A DNA stretch of 37,812 nucleotides from positions 1 through 37,812 of the forward strand of contig JAFIES010000075.1 of the NCBI GenBank assembly GCA_020832415.1. Reading direction: 5' to 3'. Every line of letters starts with the position of its first letter. The first letter of the stretch is position 1. Below the pieces are notes generated by a model that was not told the DNA's origin, ran no database searches, and was given only the letters and a program-made list of their open reading frames with translations. This stretch comes from Balneolaceae bacterium (lineage in GTDB: Bacteria > Bacteroidota > Rhodothermia > Balneolales > Balneolaceae). The translations under genes and the position numbers were made by a program. This document shows, in pieces, positions 9,964 to 15,311 of this stretch.

Positions 9964-11292
9964 ATGTATAAACTAACCAGGCAGAAAACAAACTACGACA
10001 TAGTTGCGGGCATACTATTAATTCTTCTTTTCTCTATTGGATCTTCCACATACATCAGCACATACCATGAAATCCAGGCAGAGGCTTCGTTCTGCGATGC
10101 CGGCAAATTCGAATATTCGGAGTCCTATAATTTTGATTTCGAAGAGATATTGAAAAGGGGTACAATTCGAATGATTACGAGATACACCTCCGGTACTTAT
10201 TTTTTATACGAAGGAAAAGACCGTGGTTTTGAATATGAACTTGTTTCCCGTTTTGCAAGAGAGCACGGTTTAAAAGTTGAAGTAGTGCTTATCAACCCCG
10301 GTGATGATGTTATTGAGATGTTAAATCGGGGTAAAGGAGATTTGATTGCTAAACATGTAGCTGTTACTTCAGACAGGGCTAAGCTGGTTGCATATTCCAG
10401 GCCTTATGATATGGTTTTTTCGCAAACAGAAATTGAGCGATCAAATCATCAGTATGCTCCAGATGATTATTATTACAATGAATCAGATAGAGCCTTTTTG
10501 GAAGAAGAGACTTTTGCCTGGGCTATGCGTGATAATTCCCCGCTTCTGAAACAGAAAGCAGATGATTTTTTGCAAAAACATTTTCAGCTTCGGGAAACAG
10601 ATGGCCGGATTCTGCGATCTGCATTTCTAAATCAACTTCGCCGCCTCTATTTTAATGATGATAACCTGGCAAGAAATTTCCAGAACCGTAATTATGATAC
10701 CATTCATACCGGCTATTTGTCTCCATACGATGAAATGATAAAACAGGTGGCTGAAGAGTCAGGGGTGGACTGGAAATTGGTAGTAGCTGTGATGGCGCAG
10801 GAATCCGCATTTAACCCATATGCCGAAAGTGATGCCGGTGCATTGGGTCTGATGCAAATCATTCCCCGATTTTCACTTGTTGAGAATGAAGAAATGCTTT
10901 ATGATCCCGAAACAAATATTCGTGAAGGTGTGCGATATCTCAAAAAGCACTTGGATAATAACGCCCATCTCGATTCCCTTAACAGGTATTCGATGGCATT
11001 AGCTACGTACAATGTTGGCAGCGGAAACATGGCCGATGCAAAACAACTGGTGGTTCAGCTGGGAAATAATCCTGATGAATGGAATCATGTTGCTGAGGCC
11101 TTACTTATGTTAATGCATCCGGAATATTATGAAGACGCCCGATACGGTTACAAGCGAGGCACCGAAACCGTTAACTATGTGAAAGATGTACTGATCCGGT
11201 ATAACAGATACCATACAGTTTTCAAATGGGCTGAACATACCGAAGATCTGGCCAGAGGAGATTTTATGGTTTTGCAACTCGCAATACCTTAA
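9964..11292 (+). CDS. MltF-like membrane-bound lytic transglycosylase with shortened solute-binding domain
   Basis: Predicted to cleave peptidoglycan glycan strands in the periplasm, forming 1,6-anhydro products. The 442-residue protein has an N-terminal membrane segment (about 12-33). A family-3 solute-binding region begins at about 64 (LKRGTIRMITRYTSGTY). An SLT/GH23 domain spans about 250-400, with catalytic E280 in VMAQESAFNPYAES followed by GALGLMQIIP and ALATYNVGSGN. In full MltF proteins about 100 residues separate the YSRPY-type strand from the closing LAWA-type strand. Here only about 38 residues lie between YSRPYDMVFSQTE and FAWAMRDNSPLL, so lobe 2 of the sensor domain is largely absent. 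A good purine-rich ribosome-binding site, AGAGAG, precedes the start. The next operon begins 190 nt downstream. Confidence 0.88.
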   Translation: MYKLTRQKTNYDIVAGILLILLFSIGSSTYISTYHEIQAEASFCDAGKFEYSESYNFDFEEILKRGTIRMITRYTSGTYFLYEGKDRGFEYELVSRFAREHGLKVEVVLINPGDDVIEMLNRGKGDLIAKHVAVTSDRAKLVAYSRPYDMVFSQTEIERSNHQYAPDDYYYNESDRAFLEEETFAWAMRDNSPLLKQKADDFLQKHFQLRETDGRILRSAFLNQLRRLYFNDDNLARNFQNRNYDTIHTGYLSPYDEMIKQVAEESGVDWKLVVAVMAQESAFNPYAESDAGALGLMQIIPRFSLVENEEMLYDPETNIREGVRYLKKHLDNNAHLDSLNRYSMALATYNVGSGNMADAKQLVVQLGNNPDEWNHVAEALLMLMHPEYYEDARYGYKRGTETVNYVKDVLIRYNRYHTVFKWAEHTEDLARGDFMVLQLAIP

Positions 11293-11482: not shown

Positions 11483-12292
11483 ATGCCCAGTGGTTCATAC
11501 CGTTTTTATGCCGGAGAAGGTCCTGTTGTGGCTGTTGCACTTCATGACGGCCATGATGTACGCAGCGAACTCGACCCCCTTTATAATTTAAGTAGTTCGC
11601 AAAGGCTGCGTGAAGAGGATCCTCATACAGGGTTTCTTACTTCTATTGTACCGGTTCGTGTAGTTGTGAGGAAATCGCGGTTTGAAGTGGACCTGAATCG
11701 TGAACGCAGTATAGCCGTCTACCGTACCCCGGAAGATGCGTGGGGCCTCAACGTCTGGAAAGTAATTCCTGATGATGAGTTGATTGAGAAATCACTCGCC
11801 ATCTATGACAAATTTTATGCAGATTCAAAGGTGTTCCTCAGCGGCATCATCCTGAAGTATGGCTACGTTGTAGTTTATGACATTCACTCCTACAATCATA
11901 TGCGTGGAGGACTAACCGAAAAACCGGCCGATCCTGCAGCCAATCCCGATGTGAACCTGGGCACAGCAAATCTGAACAGGGATGTGTGGGGGAAGGCAGT
12001 TGACGGGCTGGCAGAAGATCTTCGCTCATTTAATTATCTGGACGGCCATCTTACGGTTGGTGAGAACATCCGATTCAAAGGAGGCCACTATTCAAAATGG
12101 ATTCAGCAGGAGTTTGGCGACCAGAGCTGTGCCATTGCTATTGAGTTTAAAAAAATCTTTATGGATGAATGGACTCATAAATATGACCCCGTGAAACTCA
12201 GTGCACTTTACAATGCTCTTAATTTTACCCTTCCGTCATTGTTGATTCATAGTAATAGTATAGCGGAAAAACGAATGGGAGTACTGAAATGA
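11483..12292 (+). CDS. N-formylglutamate amidohydrolase family protein
   Basis: A 269-residue metal-dependent amidase-like protein. Family landmarks are HDGHDV at 21-26, RFEVDLNRER at 66-75 (the conserved DLNR block), VVYDIHSYNH at 130-139 with a probable metal-binding His, GGHYS at 200-204, and AIEFKKIFMDEW with E221. The characterised founder, HutG, hydrolyses N-formylglutamate to formate and glutamate in histidine degradation. No other hut gene is nearby, so that role is doubtful here. AGGAG at 11471-11475 is one of the few strong Shine-Dalgarno sites in the window and supports this start. Its last 4 nt overlap the next gene (ATGA), implying translational coupling with the zinc peptidase. 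An amide or peptide-tail substrate shared with the two downstream enzymes is inferred. Confidence 0.85.
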   Translation: MPSGSYRFYAGEGPVVAVALHDGHDVRSELDPLYNLSSSQRLREEDPHTGFLTSIVPVRVVVRKSRFEVDLNRERSIAVYRTPEDAWGLNVWKVIPDDELIEKSLAIYDKFYADSKVFLSGIILKYGYVVVYDIHSYNHMRGGLTEKPADPAANPDVNLGTANLNRDVWGKAVDGLAEDLRSFNYLDGHLTVGENIRFKGGHYSKWIQQEFGDQSCAIAIEFKKIFMDEWTHKYDPVKLSALYNALNFTLPSLLIHSNSIAEKRMGVLK

Positions 12293-14220
12293 GTAAGATC
12301 CGGGATTTTGATGAACCATTCGAAGAGATAATAGTAGATGTTACTCAGAAGCTGAGTGAAGACAAGCAAGTACGAATGGAACTACCGGATGGTGGATTTC
12401 TATACTTTGATCGTCCTCTTCCTTTTCTGGTGGTTTTTCGCCAGCCGGCGGATGGTGATAAAAGACCGCTTAGCCTGTTGGCACGCTCTCAAACATCTTT
12501 CCTGTTAGCACCGGCCAATAGTAAACCGGAAAACCTGAAGGCACTCGTTCATGCTATTGCTAAAACAATTTCAAAAACAAGCGGTGCATTTCTGATCATT
12601 GAACTTTGGGCCGAACAACCCAAATCCAAAGCAGGTGACAACCCTCTGCAGAATGACAGAGGGACGGTGAAAAAGTCTGCCAAAGCCAATCCTGCTGCAG
12701 ATTTTCAGATCAGGGCCCCGGGCGAAGTACCCTACTCAAGTGTAAACTACCTGAAAAAAAACCTGGAGAAAATCAAAATCGGTTATCAGAATGCAACAGC
12801 AGAAATCGCATTGGAATACCGCCACCCTCCCGGCCTTCCTCAATTAATGGGATCAGATAACTTAAAAGAACTGGGAGCCCTGCTGATTGGACTTGAAATC
12901 CGCCCGTTTTACATCAATTCCGAGACAGGTGACCCATACCCTCTCCTGCTCAGAAAACTGGCCCGTGATCTCTCGAAAGCACTTAACCGGACATTCTTCG
13001 AGTTCGTCAGAATTCAAACAAACCTGAAAGTTTCACATTTTCATATGCTTGGACGCCGGATCATGACACGTTCGGCCCGTGAAATTGACGCTAAACTGGC
13101 CCGAATCGACGATAGTTTCAGGTTTCTGCTGCTGGTTACACCCATAAACATTCAAGAAGCATGGGAGTACTTCAATAAAAATCATTTTAAGAAAAAACCG
13201 GCATTCCATTACAGGCTGATGTCGGAAGATCCAGAGATACTCAAGCGCGAGCTCTACAATATCTCCATTGAACGCGTAGAAGACCCTACCCTGGAGTTTA
13301 TGTTTCGGGAAAAACGGAGTGAACTCGATAAAATGCTGACTCTGCTTACAGAACGCGGAAAACCCGAATTCATGCCGGGGAGTATGCAATACTACGGCCC
13401 GCTTGATGAATCGGTAACCAAACTTGCAGCAGATTTGCTGTCGGCCATCCCCCGGAATTCTGATAGCGGCGAGAGCAGCATTATAACACCGAATGAATTT
13501 GCCGTAATGGCCCGCAAAGAGATCAATTACTACCGTGAACAGCATGATCCTGTTAATGCAGAGGTGTGTGTGCAGGATGATATCGCCGGGCTGCTTGTCT
13601 CAAACGGAAATTTGTATATAGGTACAGATGCAAGGATCTCAGCTATTCGGGCAGAGGCATTGATTCAGCATGAAGTGGGCACCCATATCCTTACCTATTT
13701 TAATGGCAAAGCCCAGCCACTCAAACTGCTCTATTGCGGATTGCCCCGCTACGAAGAGCTGCAAGAAGGTCTCGCGGTTCTCAGTGAATATCTTGTAGGC
13801 GGACTGACAGCCAGTCGTCTTCGGCTTCTGGCGGCAAGGGTAATTACTGTTCAGGCCATTATGCGTGGCGCTGGTTTCGTCGAAACATTTCACATTCTGC
13901 ATGAGGATCATGGATTCGATGCCAGACAGGCTTTCACCATTACGATGCGAGTGTATCGCGGGGGAGGACTTACCAAAGATGCGATATACCTGAATGGGTT
14001 GGTGCGGGTTCTCAAATGGCTGGAAGATGGAAATGAACTTGAACCCCTTCTGATCGGAAAAATCCGTGAAGACTATGTACCACTTATTAATGAGCTGCTC
14101 TACCGGCGCATGCTGCATCCGGCGCCACTGAGTCCGCGTTACCTTGATTTTCCCGGAGTCAGGTCGAAACTTGAGCAACTAAAAACCGGATTATCCGTTT
14201 TAGATTTACTGCAAGTATAA
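12289..14220 (+). CDS. QEGLA-motif zinc peptidase (DUF1704/MATCAP-like)
   Basis: A 643-residue member of the family annotated as flavohemoglobin expression-modulating QEGLA motif protein. It carries HEVGTH at 461-466 (encoded from 13669), a gluzincin-type HExxxH site. The name motif QEGLAVLSEYL follows at 492-502 and its Glu is the likely third zinc ligand. Eukaryotic relatives (MATCAP/TMCP) are carboxypeptidases that remove the terminal Tyr of alpha-tubulin, so a bacterial carboxypeptidase activity is plausible but unproven. Residues 1-110 form a separate N-terminal module and about 111-145 look like a flexible linker. No signal peptide is seen, so it is probably cytoplasmic. It overlaps the upstream amidohydrolase gene by 4 nt and is followed after 44 nt by the ATP-grasp gene. 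Confidence 0.88.
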   Translation: MSKIRDFDEPFEEIIVDVTQKLSEDKQVRMELPDGGFLYFDRPLPFLVVFRQPADGDKRPLSLLARSQTSFLLAPANSKPENLKALVHAIAKTISKTSGAFLIIELWAEQPKSKAGDNPLQNDRGTVKKSAKANPAADFQIRAPGEVPYSSVNYLKKNLEKIKIGYQNATAEIALEYRHPPGLPQLMGSDNLKELGALLIGLEIRPFYINSETGDPYPLLLRKLARDLSKALNRTFFEFVRIQTNLKVSHFHMLGRRIMTRSAREIDAKLARIDDSFRFLLLVTPINIQEAWEYFNKNHFKKKPAFHYRLMSEDPEILKRELYNISIERVEDPTLEFMFREKRSELDKMLTLLTERGKPEFMPGSMQYYGPLDESVTKLAADLLSAIPRNSDSGESSIITPNEFAVMARKEINYYREQHDPVNAEVCVQDDIAGLLVSNGNLYIGTDARISAIRAEALIQHEVGTHILTYFNGKAQPLKLLYCGLPRYEELQEGLAVLSEYLVGGLTASRLRLLAARVITVQAIMRGAGFVETFHILHEDHGFDARQAFTITMRVYRGGGLTKDAIYLNGLVRVLKWLEDGNELEPLLIGKIREDYVPLINELLYRRMLHPAPLSPRYLDFPGVRSKLEQLKTGLSVLDLLQV

Positions 14221-14264
14221 ATATTTCAACAGATTACCAACTATATAAAAACAGAGAGAGAGAA

Positions 14265-15311
14265 ATGAGAATCGCGCTAATCATCAATGATATTGAAACC
14301 GAAAAATCGGGTTATACATCCGTCTATTTGGGGCTGAAAATGCACAATCAGGGTCACGAAGTCTATTTTACCGGAGTTGGAGACCTGGTGTACTATCCGG
14401 ATGGACATATGGGGGCAACGGCTAAAAGAGCACCGGGTAATAAATACAAAACCTCAAAGACCTACTTGCAGGCTATCAAAGGTGATAAGGCTATCGTGGA
14501 AAAGATAACAGCAACTGATCTGGATGTACTGCTGCTTCGAAACGACCCCGCCTCGGAATCCGTTGGCCGCGGATGGGCTAAAAACGCAGCTCTGATTTTT
14601 GGGCAGCTCGCCCTCAGACACGGTGTAATAGTCCTCAATGATCCAAATAGCCTGTCGGAAGCAGTCAACAAAATGTATTTCCAGCATTTTCCAGAATCCG
14701 TTCGGCCACGGACACTCATCACGCGCGACCCAAAAGAGATCCATAATTTTCATAAAGAACAGGGTGGCAGTATGATCGTGAAGCCGCTTCAGGGATCCGG
14801 CGGTGCCGGTGTTTTTCTTGTAAAAAAGGATGGTGCGGTAAATCTGAACCAAATGATTGAGGCGATAAGCCGCGATGGTTATGTAATTGCCCAGGAATAT
14901 TTACCTAAAGCCACCGAAGGCGATGTGCGGTTATTCGTGGTAAATGGTGAAGCACTTGAATGGAAGGGGAAATATGCTGCGCTTCGTCGTATCAATAAAA
15001 ATGAAGATATGCGCAGTAATATGTCAGTAGGTGGATCTGCGGAGAGGGTGAAAGTTGATGATACGATGCTCAAGATTGTCGATATAATCCGGCCGAAACT
15101 AGTCATGGACGGCATGTTCATGGTCGGGCTCGACATCGTAGGCGAAAAGCTGATGGAGATTAATGTATTTAGCCCCGGCGGGCTTCAGGGTGCAAGCAAA
15201 CTGGAAGGCGTGGATTTTTCTATTCCTGTAATCCGTGCCATCGAAAACAAGGTTCAGTATAGAATTGAGTACGCGGATCAAATCAATAACAAACTCCTGG
15301 CCACGATTTAA
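14265..15311 (+). CDS. ATP-grasp ligase, GshB/RimK-like
   Basis: A 348-residue ATP-dependent carboxylate-amine ligase homologue. The N-terminal substrate domain (MRIALIINDIETEKSGYTSV) precedes the ATP-grasp core. SMIVKPLQGSGGAGVFLV near 164-181 is the nucleotide-binding lysine and glycine loop. GDVRLFVVNGEALEWKGKYA follows, and MVGLDIVGEKLMEINVFSPG near 285-304 supplies the acidic and Asn metal ligands. The closing EINVFSPGG is the glutathione-synthetase-type signature. No gshA is adjacent, and the operon partners are hydrolases of amide or peptide bonds. It may therefore add an amino acid or peptide to a small molecule or a protein tail and not make glutathione. AGAGAGAGA precedes the ATG. 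It is the last gene of the three-gene operon. Confidence 0.88.
   Translation: MRIALIINDIETEKSGYTSVYLGLKMHNQGHEVYFTGVGDLVYYPDGHMGATAKRAPGNKYKTSKTYLQAIKGDKAIVEKITATDLDVLLLRNDPASESVGRGWAKNAALIFGQLALRHGVIVLNDPNSLSEAVNKMYFQHFPESVRPRTLITRDPKEIHNFHKEQGGSMIVKPLQGSGGAGVFLVKKDGAVNLNQMIEAISRDGYVIAQEYLPKATEGDVRLFVVNGEALEWKGKYAALRRINKNEDMRSNMSVGGSAERVKVDDTMLKIVDIIRPKLVMDGMFMVGLDIVGEKLMEINVFSPGGLQGASKLEGVDFSIPVIRAIENKVQYRIEYADQINNKLLATI

Follow-up and report, generated by a model that had tools for sequence, protein, structure and literature searches.

The stretch of DNA analysed here (the window: 37,812 nucleotides (nt), GenBank contig JAFIES010000075.1) belongs to a Balneolaceae bacterium whose draft genome (GCA_020832415.1) comprises 3.94 Mb in 152 contigs; the window is contig C96 of this draft, and the nearest relatives of the source are Balneolaceae. 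It contains three consecutive genes, encoding a hydrolase of the FGase family (PF05013), a zinc peptidase of the MATCAP/QEGLA family and an ATP-grasp ligase (Table 1). The first two genes overlap by 4 nt and a gap of 44 nt separates the second from the third, exactly as described in an earlier note made from the letters of the window, and each of the three families named there is matched above its Pfam cut-off. An MltF-like gene upstream ends 190 nt before the start of the FGase gene, and an alpha/beta hydrolase gene downstream starts 416 nt past the end of the ligase gene, so that the three genes look like a single unit. They probably form one system.

Table 1. Features of the three-gene locus, with positions in the window.
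Feature	Position	Strand	Evidence
FGase-family (PF05013) zinc amidohydrolase, 269 residues, predicted active	11483..12292	+	Pfam, alignment of 19 relatives, structure match of orthologous domain
MATCAP/QEGLA-family zinc peptidase with fused decayed FGase domain, 643 residues	12289..14220	+	Pfam, NCBIfam, structure
Predicted pseudo-FGase domain, approximately residues 11–245 of the peptidase	12319..13023	+	VIA-align, hhalign, profile matches, joint alignment
MATCAP-type zincin domain, peptidase residues 280–643	13126..14217	+	VIA-align, alignment of 28 relatives
GshB/RimK-type ATP-grasp carboxylate-amine ligase (PRK12458 subfamily), 348 residues	14265..15311	+	NF009110, alignment of 25 relatives

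The FGase matches PF05013 at 60.9 bits (cut-off 28.9) and contains the motifs HDGH (H21 to H24), EEDP (44–47), SRFE (65–68), DLNR (70–73) and DIHSYN (133–138), followed by E221. Residues H21, E44, E45, D70, H135 and E221 are invariant across 19 aligned relatives and are candidate metal residues; on this basis the protein is predicted to be catalytically active. A search of PDB sequences with the FGase profile found nothing, and the fold assignment therefore rests on structure comparison. For both the FGase and the ligase this comparison was made on a fusion protein from Myxococcales (locus L057, described below) and not on the window proteins; the FGase domain of the fusion matches the N-formylglutamate amidohydrolase 2q7s with a Z score of 24.9 over 240 residues. 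The trio FGase thus resembles the N-formylglutamate amidohydrolases (2q7s, 2odf) in fold and candidate metal residues, but its gene is joined, by fusion or by linkage, to those of a ligase and a peptidase. The name of PF05013 would suggest Hut-type histidine degradation, or some other catabolic role, with the neighbouring genes there by chance. However, no NCBIfam model matches the window FGase and there are no hut genes among the annotated neighbours, in agreement with the earlier note, and identification as the HutG N-formylglutamate deformylase was rejected on both grounds. The conserved linkage and the fusions described below also argue against a catabolic role, which we consider extremely improbable.

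The peptidase matches PF08014 (MATCAP) at 298.8 bits (cut-off 27). It carries the two motifs noticed earlier, HEVGTH at 461–466 and QEGLA at 492, and within them H461, E462, H466 and E493 are invariant across 28 relatives; HEVGTH and E493 are predicted to supply the zinc ligands and the catalytic base. Structures were predicted using AlphaFold2 with 28–29 related sequences, giving a mean predicted local distance difference test score of 85.4 for the peptidase. A comparison with MATCAP had been proposed in the earlier note, and the zincin domain of the predicted model does have the MATCAP fold, aligning with human MATCAP (7z5g) over 291 residues at 3.0 Å (VIA-align Z 24.5). Like human MATCAP/TMCP1 and TMCP2 (7z5g, 7z6s), it has HExxxH and a downstream Glu (PMC10499314); it differs from them in having only about 20% identity, an N-terminal decayed FGase domain and an adjoining ligase gene. 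The protein narrowly misses the cut-off of TIGR02421, the QEGLA equivalog (332.2 against 338.65 bits), which is the source of the label “flavohemoglobin expression-modulating”, and our analysis likewise gives no support to this label, which the earlier note had found ill-fitting. In a tree of the peptidase domain, the proteins encoded with the two partner genes make up a single supported group that divides into long and short or fused forms, and single-gene relatives lie apart from it.

Pfam gives no match for the N-terminal 250 residues of the long peptidase. In the predicted model, residues 33–243 align best with 2q7s (VIA-align Z 14.8, 185 residues aligned, 3.1 Å) and next best with 2odf (Z 12.1), from the same PF05013-like group. 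A link to the FGases of the trio was found using hhalign (p = 8e-7), and the peptidase profile matches both a free FGase open reading frame (ORF; E = 1.5e-8) and, at profile positions 60–594, an FGase–peptidase fusion (L068). A joint alignment shows that the domain lacks HDGH and the active-site insert SRFE/DLNR and has IELWAE in place of DIHSYN, so that the His of DxHSYN is lost; among the metal and active-site residues only the final Glu is kept, in most sequences. Because HDGH, the insert and this His are gone, the domain is predicted not to bind metal, and we regard the N-terminal 250 residues as a decayed FGase domain without metal ligands. A simple history would be fusion of an FGase to the peptidase followed by decay, a separate active FGase being kept or regained.

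Fusions also occur between the genes themselves. In three Myxococcales loci (L045, L052, L057) FGase and ligase form a single ORF of 638–654 residues that runs through both domains without a stop. In the model of the L057 protein, residues 17–275 have an FGase fold and 291–621 a GshB fold, and the conserved residues of both enzymes are retained. In one Bacteroidota genome (G045), FGase and peptidase form the single 667-residue ORF of L068, which scores 381.3 on TIGR02421. Three gene orders are found: FGase–peptidase–ligase, fused FGase–ligase followed by peptidase, and ligase–FGase–peptidase. Since the FGase is fused to either the ligase or the peptidase, and a decayed copy of its domain lies inside the peptidase, it is a core component of the system, a point missed by the earlier note. 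The fusions and the pseudoenzyme domain point to physical coupling.

Rare co-occurrence of the three families, which the earlier note had named as evidence against its reading, was not observed. We found all three genes in 41 of 41 loci fetched from named genomes using the peptidase as bait, a collection biased to close relatives (22 are from Pontibacter or Botryobacter) that covers Balneolaceae, Pontibacter, Botryobacter, Marivirga, Sphingobacterium, Verrucomicrobia, Acidobacteria and Myxococcales. An independent, evenly drawn though patchy sample of 296 Bacteroidota genomes contained 16 MATCAP carriers. A ligase with a high GSH-S_ATP score is adjacent in 15 of these 16, against none of the 280 non-carriers (Fisher p = 2.6e-24); two non-carriers hold a canonical GshB only, and counting both against the association gives p = 3.5e-22. 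The trio is also present on rhizobial plasmids, including pSymB of Sinorhizobium meliloti. MATCAP-family proteins outside this clade, from Pseudoalteromonas, Legionella and most of the Myxococcota examined, are encoded without either partner in the stretches read. Most of the MATCAP genes examined in Myxococcota fall outside the group, and the short flanks that were read hold no partner gene. The three proteins co-vary: across five or six phyla their pairwise distances correlate with r = 0.82–0.88, and none of 5000 permutations reached so high a value. The arrangement is far beyond chance. No fourth gene shared among groups was found, whether transporter, tailoring gene or regulator.

The ligase matches the Pfam families GSH-S_ATP (175.7 bits, cut-off 23) and RimK (66.7, cut-off 21), as expected of the GshB/RimK-like enzyme proposed in the earlier note; the kinship to TTL also suggested there was not upheld, there being no match to the Pfam TTL family at E = 0.001. 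It passes NF009110, the model of the PRK12458 subfamily (437.2 bits, cut-off 408), but remains below the RimK family TIGR00768 (88.5 against 143.4), the glutathione-synthase equivalog TIGR01380 (196.2 against 299.05) and PRK05246 (210.6 against 272). The ATP-grasp core is kept in an alignment of 25 relatives. The loop following the conserved EIN is VFSPGG (NVFSPGG), which is nearer to RimK than to the NVTSPT of canonical GshB. In the Myxococcales fusion model the ligase domain matches E. coli GshB (1gsa) with Z 33.9 and RimK with Z 26.1. The enzyme therefore shares fold and catalytic core with E. coli GshB, and differs from it in its equivalog scores, its loop and its genomic company: all three gamma-glutamylcysteine ligase families searched for (PF04107, PF04262 and PF08886) are absent from 9 of the 15 Bacteroidota carriers. 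GCS2 is present in the other six, and the window genome has one weak GCS2, in another operon.

These observations bear on glutathione metabolism, which the earlier note had named as an alternative: the ligase would be a glutathione synthetase, or make a close analogue, and the hydrolases would degrade the product. The fold match to GshB and the name of NF009110, glutathione synthetase, are in its favour, as are flavobacterial paralogues that do pass the PRK05246 cut-off and two flavobacterial clusters (L069 and L072) with a rhodanese/3-mercaptopyruvate sulfurtransferase-like gene. Because the window ligase fails both equivalog cut-offs and most carriers lack any tested partner ligase family, we consider this explanation very unlikely and rejected glutathione synthesis as the default role; it is disfavoured overall, though not for every carrier. 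The failed cut-offs, the RimK-like loop and the frequent lack of gamma-glutamylcysteine ligase families make it likely that the ligase acts on some carboxylate that is not gamma-Glu-Cys.

Linkage, co-variation and fusion tie the ligase to the two hydrolases, which suggests a self-contained, horizontally spreading module that makes and breaks an amide bond, a reading to which we give an even chance. On family chemistry, the ATP-grasp enzyme would phosphorylate a carboxylate and couple it to an amino acid or amine. A short peptide-like metabolite would probably provide this carboxylate at its C-terminus, a protein tail being the less likely source. The MATCAP-type enzyme would act as a carboxypeptidase that takes off the C-terminal residue of the product and the FGase as an amidohydrolase cutting an acyl-amino-acid amide, the two zinc enzymes between them undoing or trimming what the ligase makes. 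The pseudo-FGase domain may have a docking or regulatory role that lets the ligase and both hydrolases work as one complex, possibly through contact between this domain and the active FGase. Two observations favour a small peptide-like product: the ligase resembles GshB most closely, and no tail-bearing gene shared by the loci was found. Of the earlier interpretation, the single unit, the MATCAP fold and the idea of a cycle or a peptide-like metabolite fit this picture; the analogy to tubulin and TTL is unsupported.

Several points weigh against a make-and-break module. Function is assigned by homology; two of the 15 ligase-paired carriers, G053 and G273, lack the FGase, leaving 13 that have it; and the sulfurtransferase genes and more GshB-like ligases of some flavobacterial loci hint at thiol chemistry in that branch. 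The co-occurrence is moreover compatible with a one-way biosynthesis, in which both hydrolases could prepare or trim a small-peptide precursor that the ligase then completes, with no cycle. The substrates of GshB-like ligases are mostly small molecules and those of FGases N-acyl amino acids, the fold matches agree with this, and the three-gene set is self-contained. However, no transporter, tailoring gene or regulator is shared among groups, and the fused FGase–ligase, with both residue sets kept, resembles bidirectional synthetase–amidases. In glutathionylspermidine synthetase/amidase, an ATP-grasp-type ligase and an amidase that breaks down the ligase product make up one fused protein, and the enzyme runs in both directions; its amidase fold is unrelated to those of the trio. 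We regard one-way biosynthesis as unlikely.

A further explanation is reversible modification of a protein tail, in which the ligase would add one or more C-terminal residues to a specific protein and the MATCAP-type peptidase would remove them; tyrosination/glutamylation of tubulin and the action of RimK/RimB on ribosomal protein S6 are parallel cases. The eukaryotic relatives of the peptidase, MATCAP/TMCP enzymes, trim tubulin tails by taking off C-terminal Tyr and Glu (PMC10499314). Among the structural neighbours of the ligase is RimK, which lengthens the tail of a protein; in Pseudomonas the glutamates that RimK adds are removed by RimB, and a RimBK hybrid also exists (PMC11957791). Against this, the ligase domain is nearer to GshB than to RimK and has no TTL match, and a module that spreads across phyla must either act on a universal target or carry its own, whereas no further gene shared among the groups was found. 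The tails of ribosomal protein S6 are acidic in Balneolaceae and basic in flavobacteria, in each case both with and without the module; they follow taxonomy, and S6 was rejected as the target. The earlier note had looked to tails that track the locus, and none was found, S6 tails being the only ones tested. Tail modification is rather unlikely in our view, and still more doubtful is the specific proposal of a C-terminal add-and-remove cycle in which the pseudo-amidohydrolase domain ties a MATCAP-type carboxypeptidase to both an amidohydrolase and an ATP-grasp ligase. Such a cycle would be the prokaryotic equivalent of the one on tubulin tails and might shed light on the origin of eukaryotic MATCAP.

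The closest precedent for the trio is RimK/RimB of Pseudomonas, a tested ligase–protease pair. The two share an ATP-grasp ligase with a dedicated protease that, in Pseudomonas, removes what the ligase adds, a fused hybrid form, and a distribution pointing to horizontal transfer (PMC11957791). They differ in that RimB is an aspartic retropepsin-like endoprotease, whereas the trio has two zinc enzymes, another ligase subfamily and the predicted pseudo-FGase domain.

A literature search of non-subscription papers found nothing on DUF1704/QEGLA with ATP-grasp enzymes or on the trio, and no function for this bacterial clade of tubulin-carboxypeptidase relatives. The pseudo-FGase domain, the fusions of FGase to ligase and to peptidase, and the co-variation of the three proteins are new here. 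A recurrent enzyme set is defined from genomics alone, in bacteria that include genetically tractable species such as S. meliloti. Establishing its role would assign a function to a bacterial clade related to tubulin carboxypeptidase, and three labels that look doubtful would be corrected, namely flavohemoglobin modulator, glutathione synthase and N-formylglutamate amidohydrolase.

Promoter and terminator scans gave results no better than shuffles, and a loose motif scan for an EcfG-type stress promoter upstream of three rhizobial loci gave no match. A phage or defence system was rejected, as PADLOC gave no matches and PHROGs just a weak ATP-grasp match. The upstream neighbour (window 9964–11292) has solute-binding and SLT domains, and its score of 203.8 falls well short of the cut-off of 354 set for the MltF equivalog.

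Some related loci differ from the trio. A second FGase of the window genome, on contig C47 (L080, 4054–8175), lies in an operon with a C39-type peptidase, an RLAN/RimK ATP-grasp enzyme and GCS2, and the same gene order occurs in a genome of the same genus without the trio (L081); the FGase family thus recurs beside amide ligases, though here with other ligase families and no MATCAP peptidase. Amidoligase operons described by Iyer et al. in 2009 reportedly also place an FGase beside amide-bond ligases, again of other families and with no MATCAP peptidase. Five flavobacterial loci (L066, L067, L069, L070, L072) have a more GshB-like ligase ahead of FGase and peptidase, and L069 and L070 have two ligases each. 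In L066 a Glu/dicarboxylate symporter and chorismate synthase precede the ligase, with ORFs of similar size and position in the other four loci. In G076, one of the two genomes with canonical GshB only, the cluster L082 (4147–7536) joins that gene to a DNase_II-like gene and to GCS2. Finally, a 99-residue ORF after the ligase in a Verrucomicrobia locus (L039, 7958–8254) resembles part of the ligase and represents a partial duplication.

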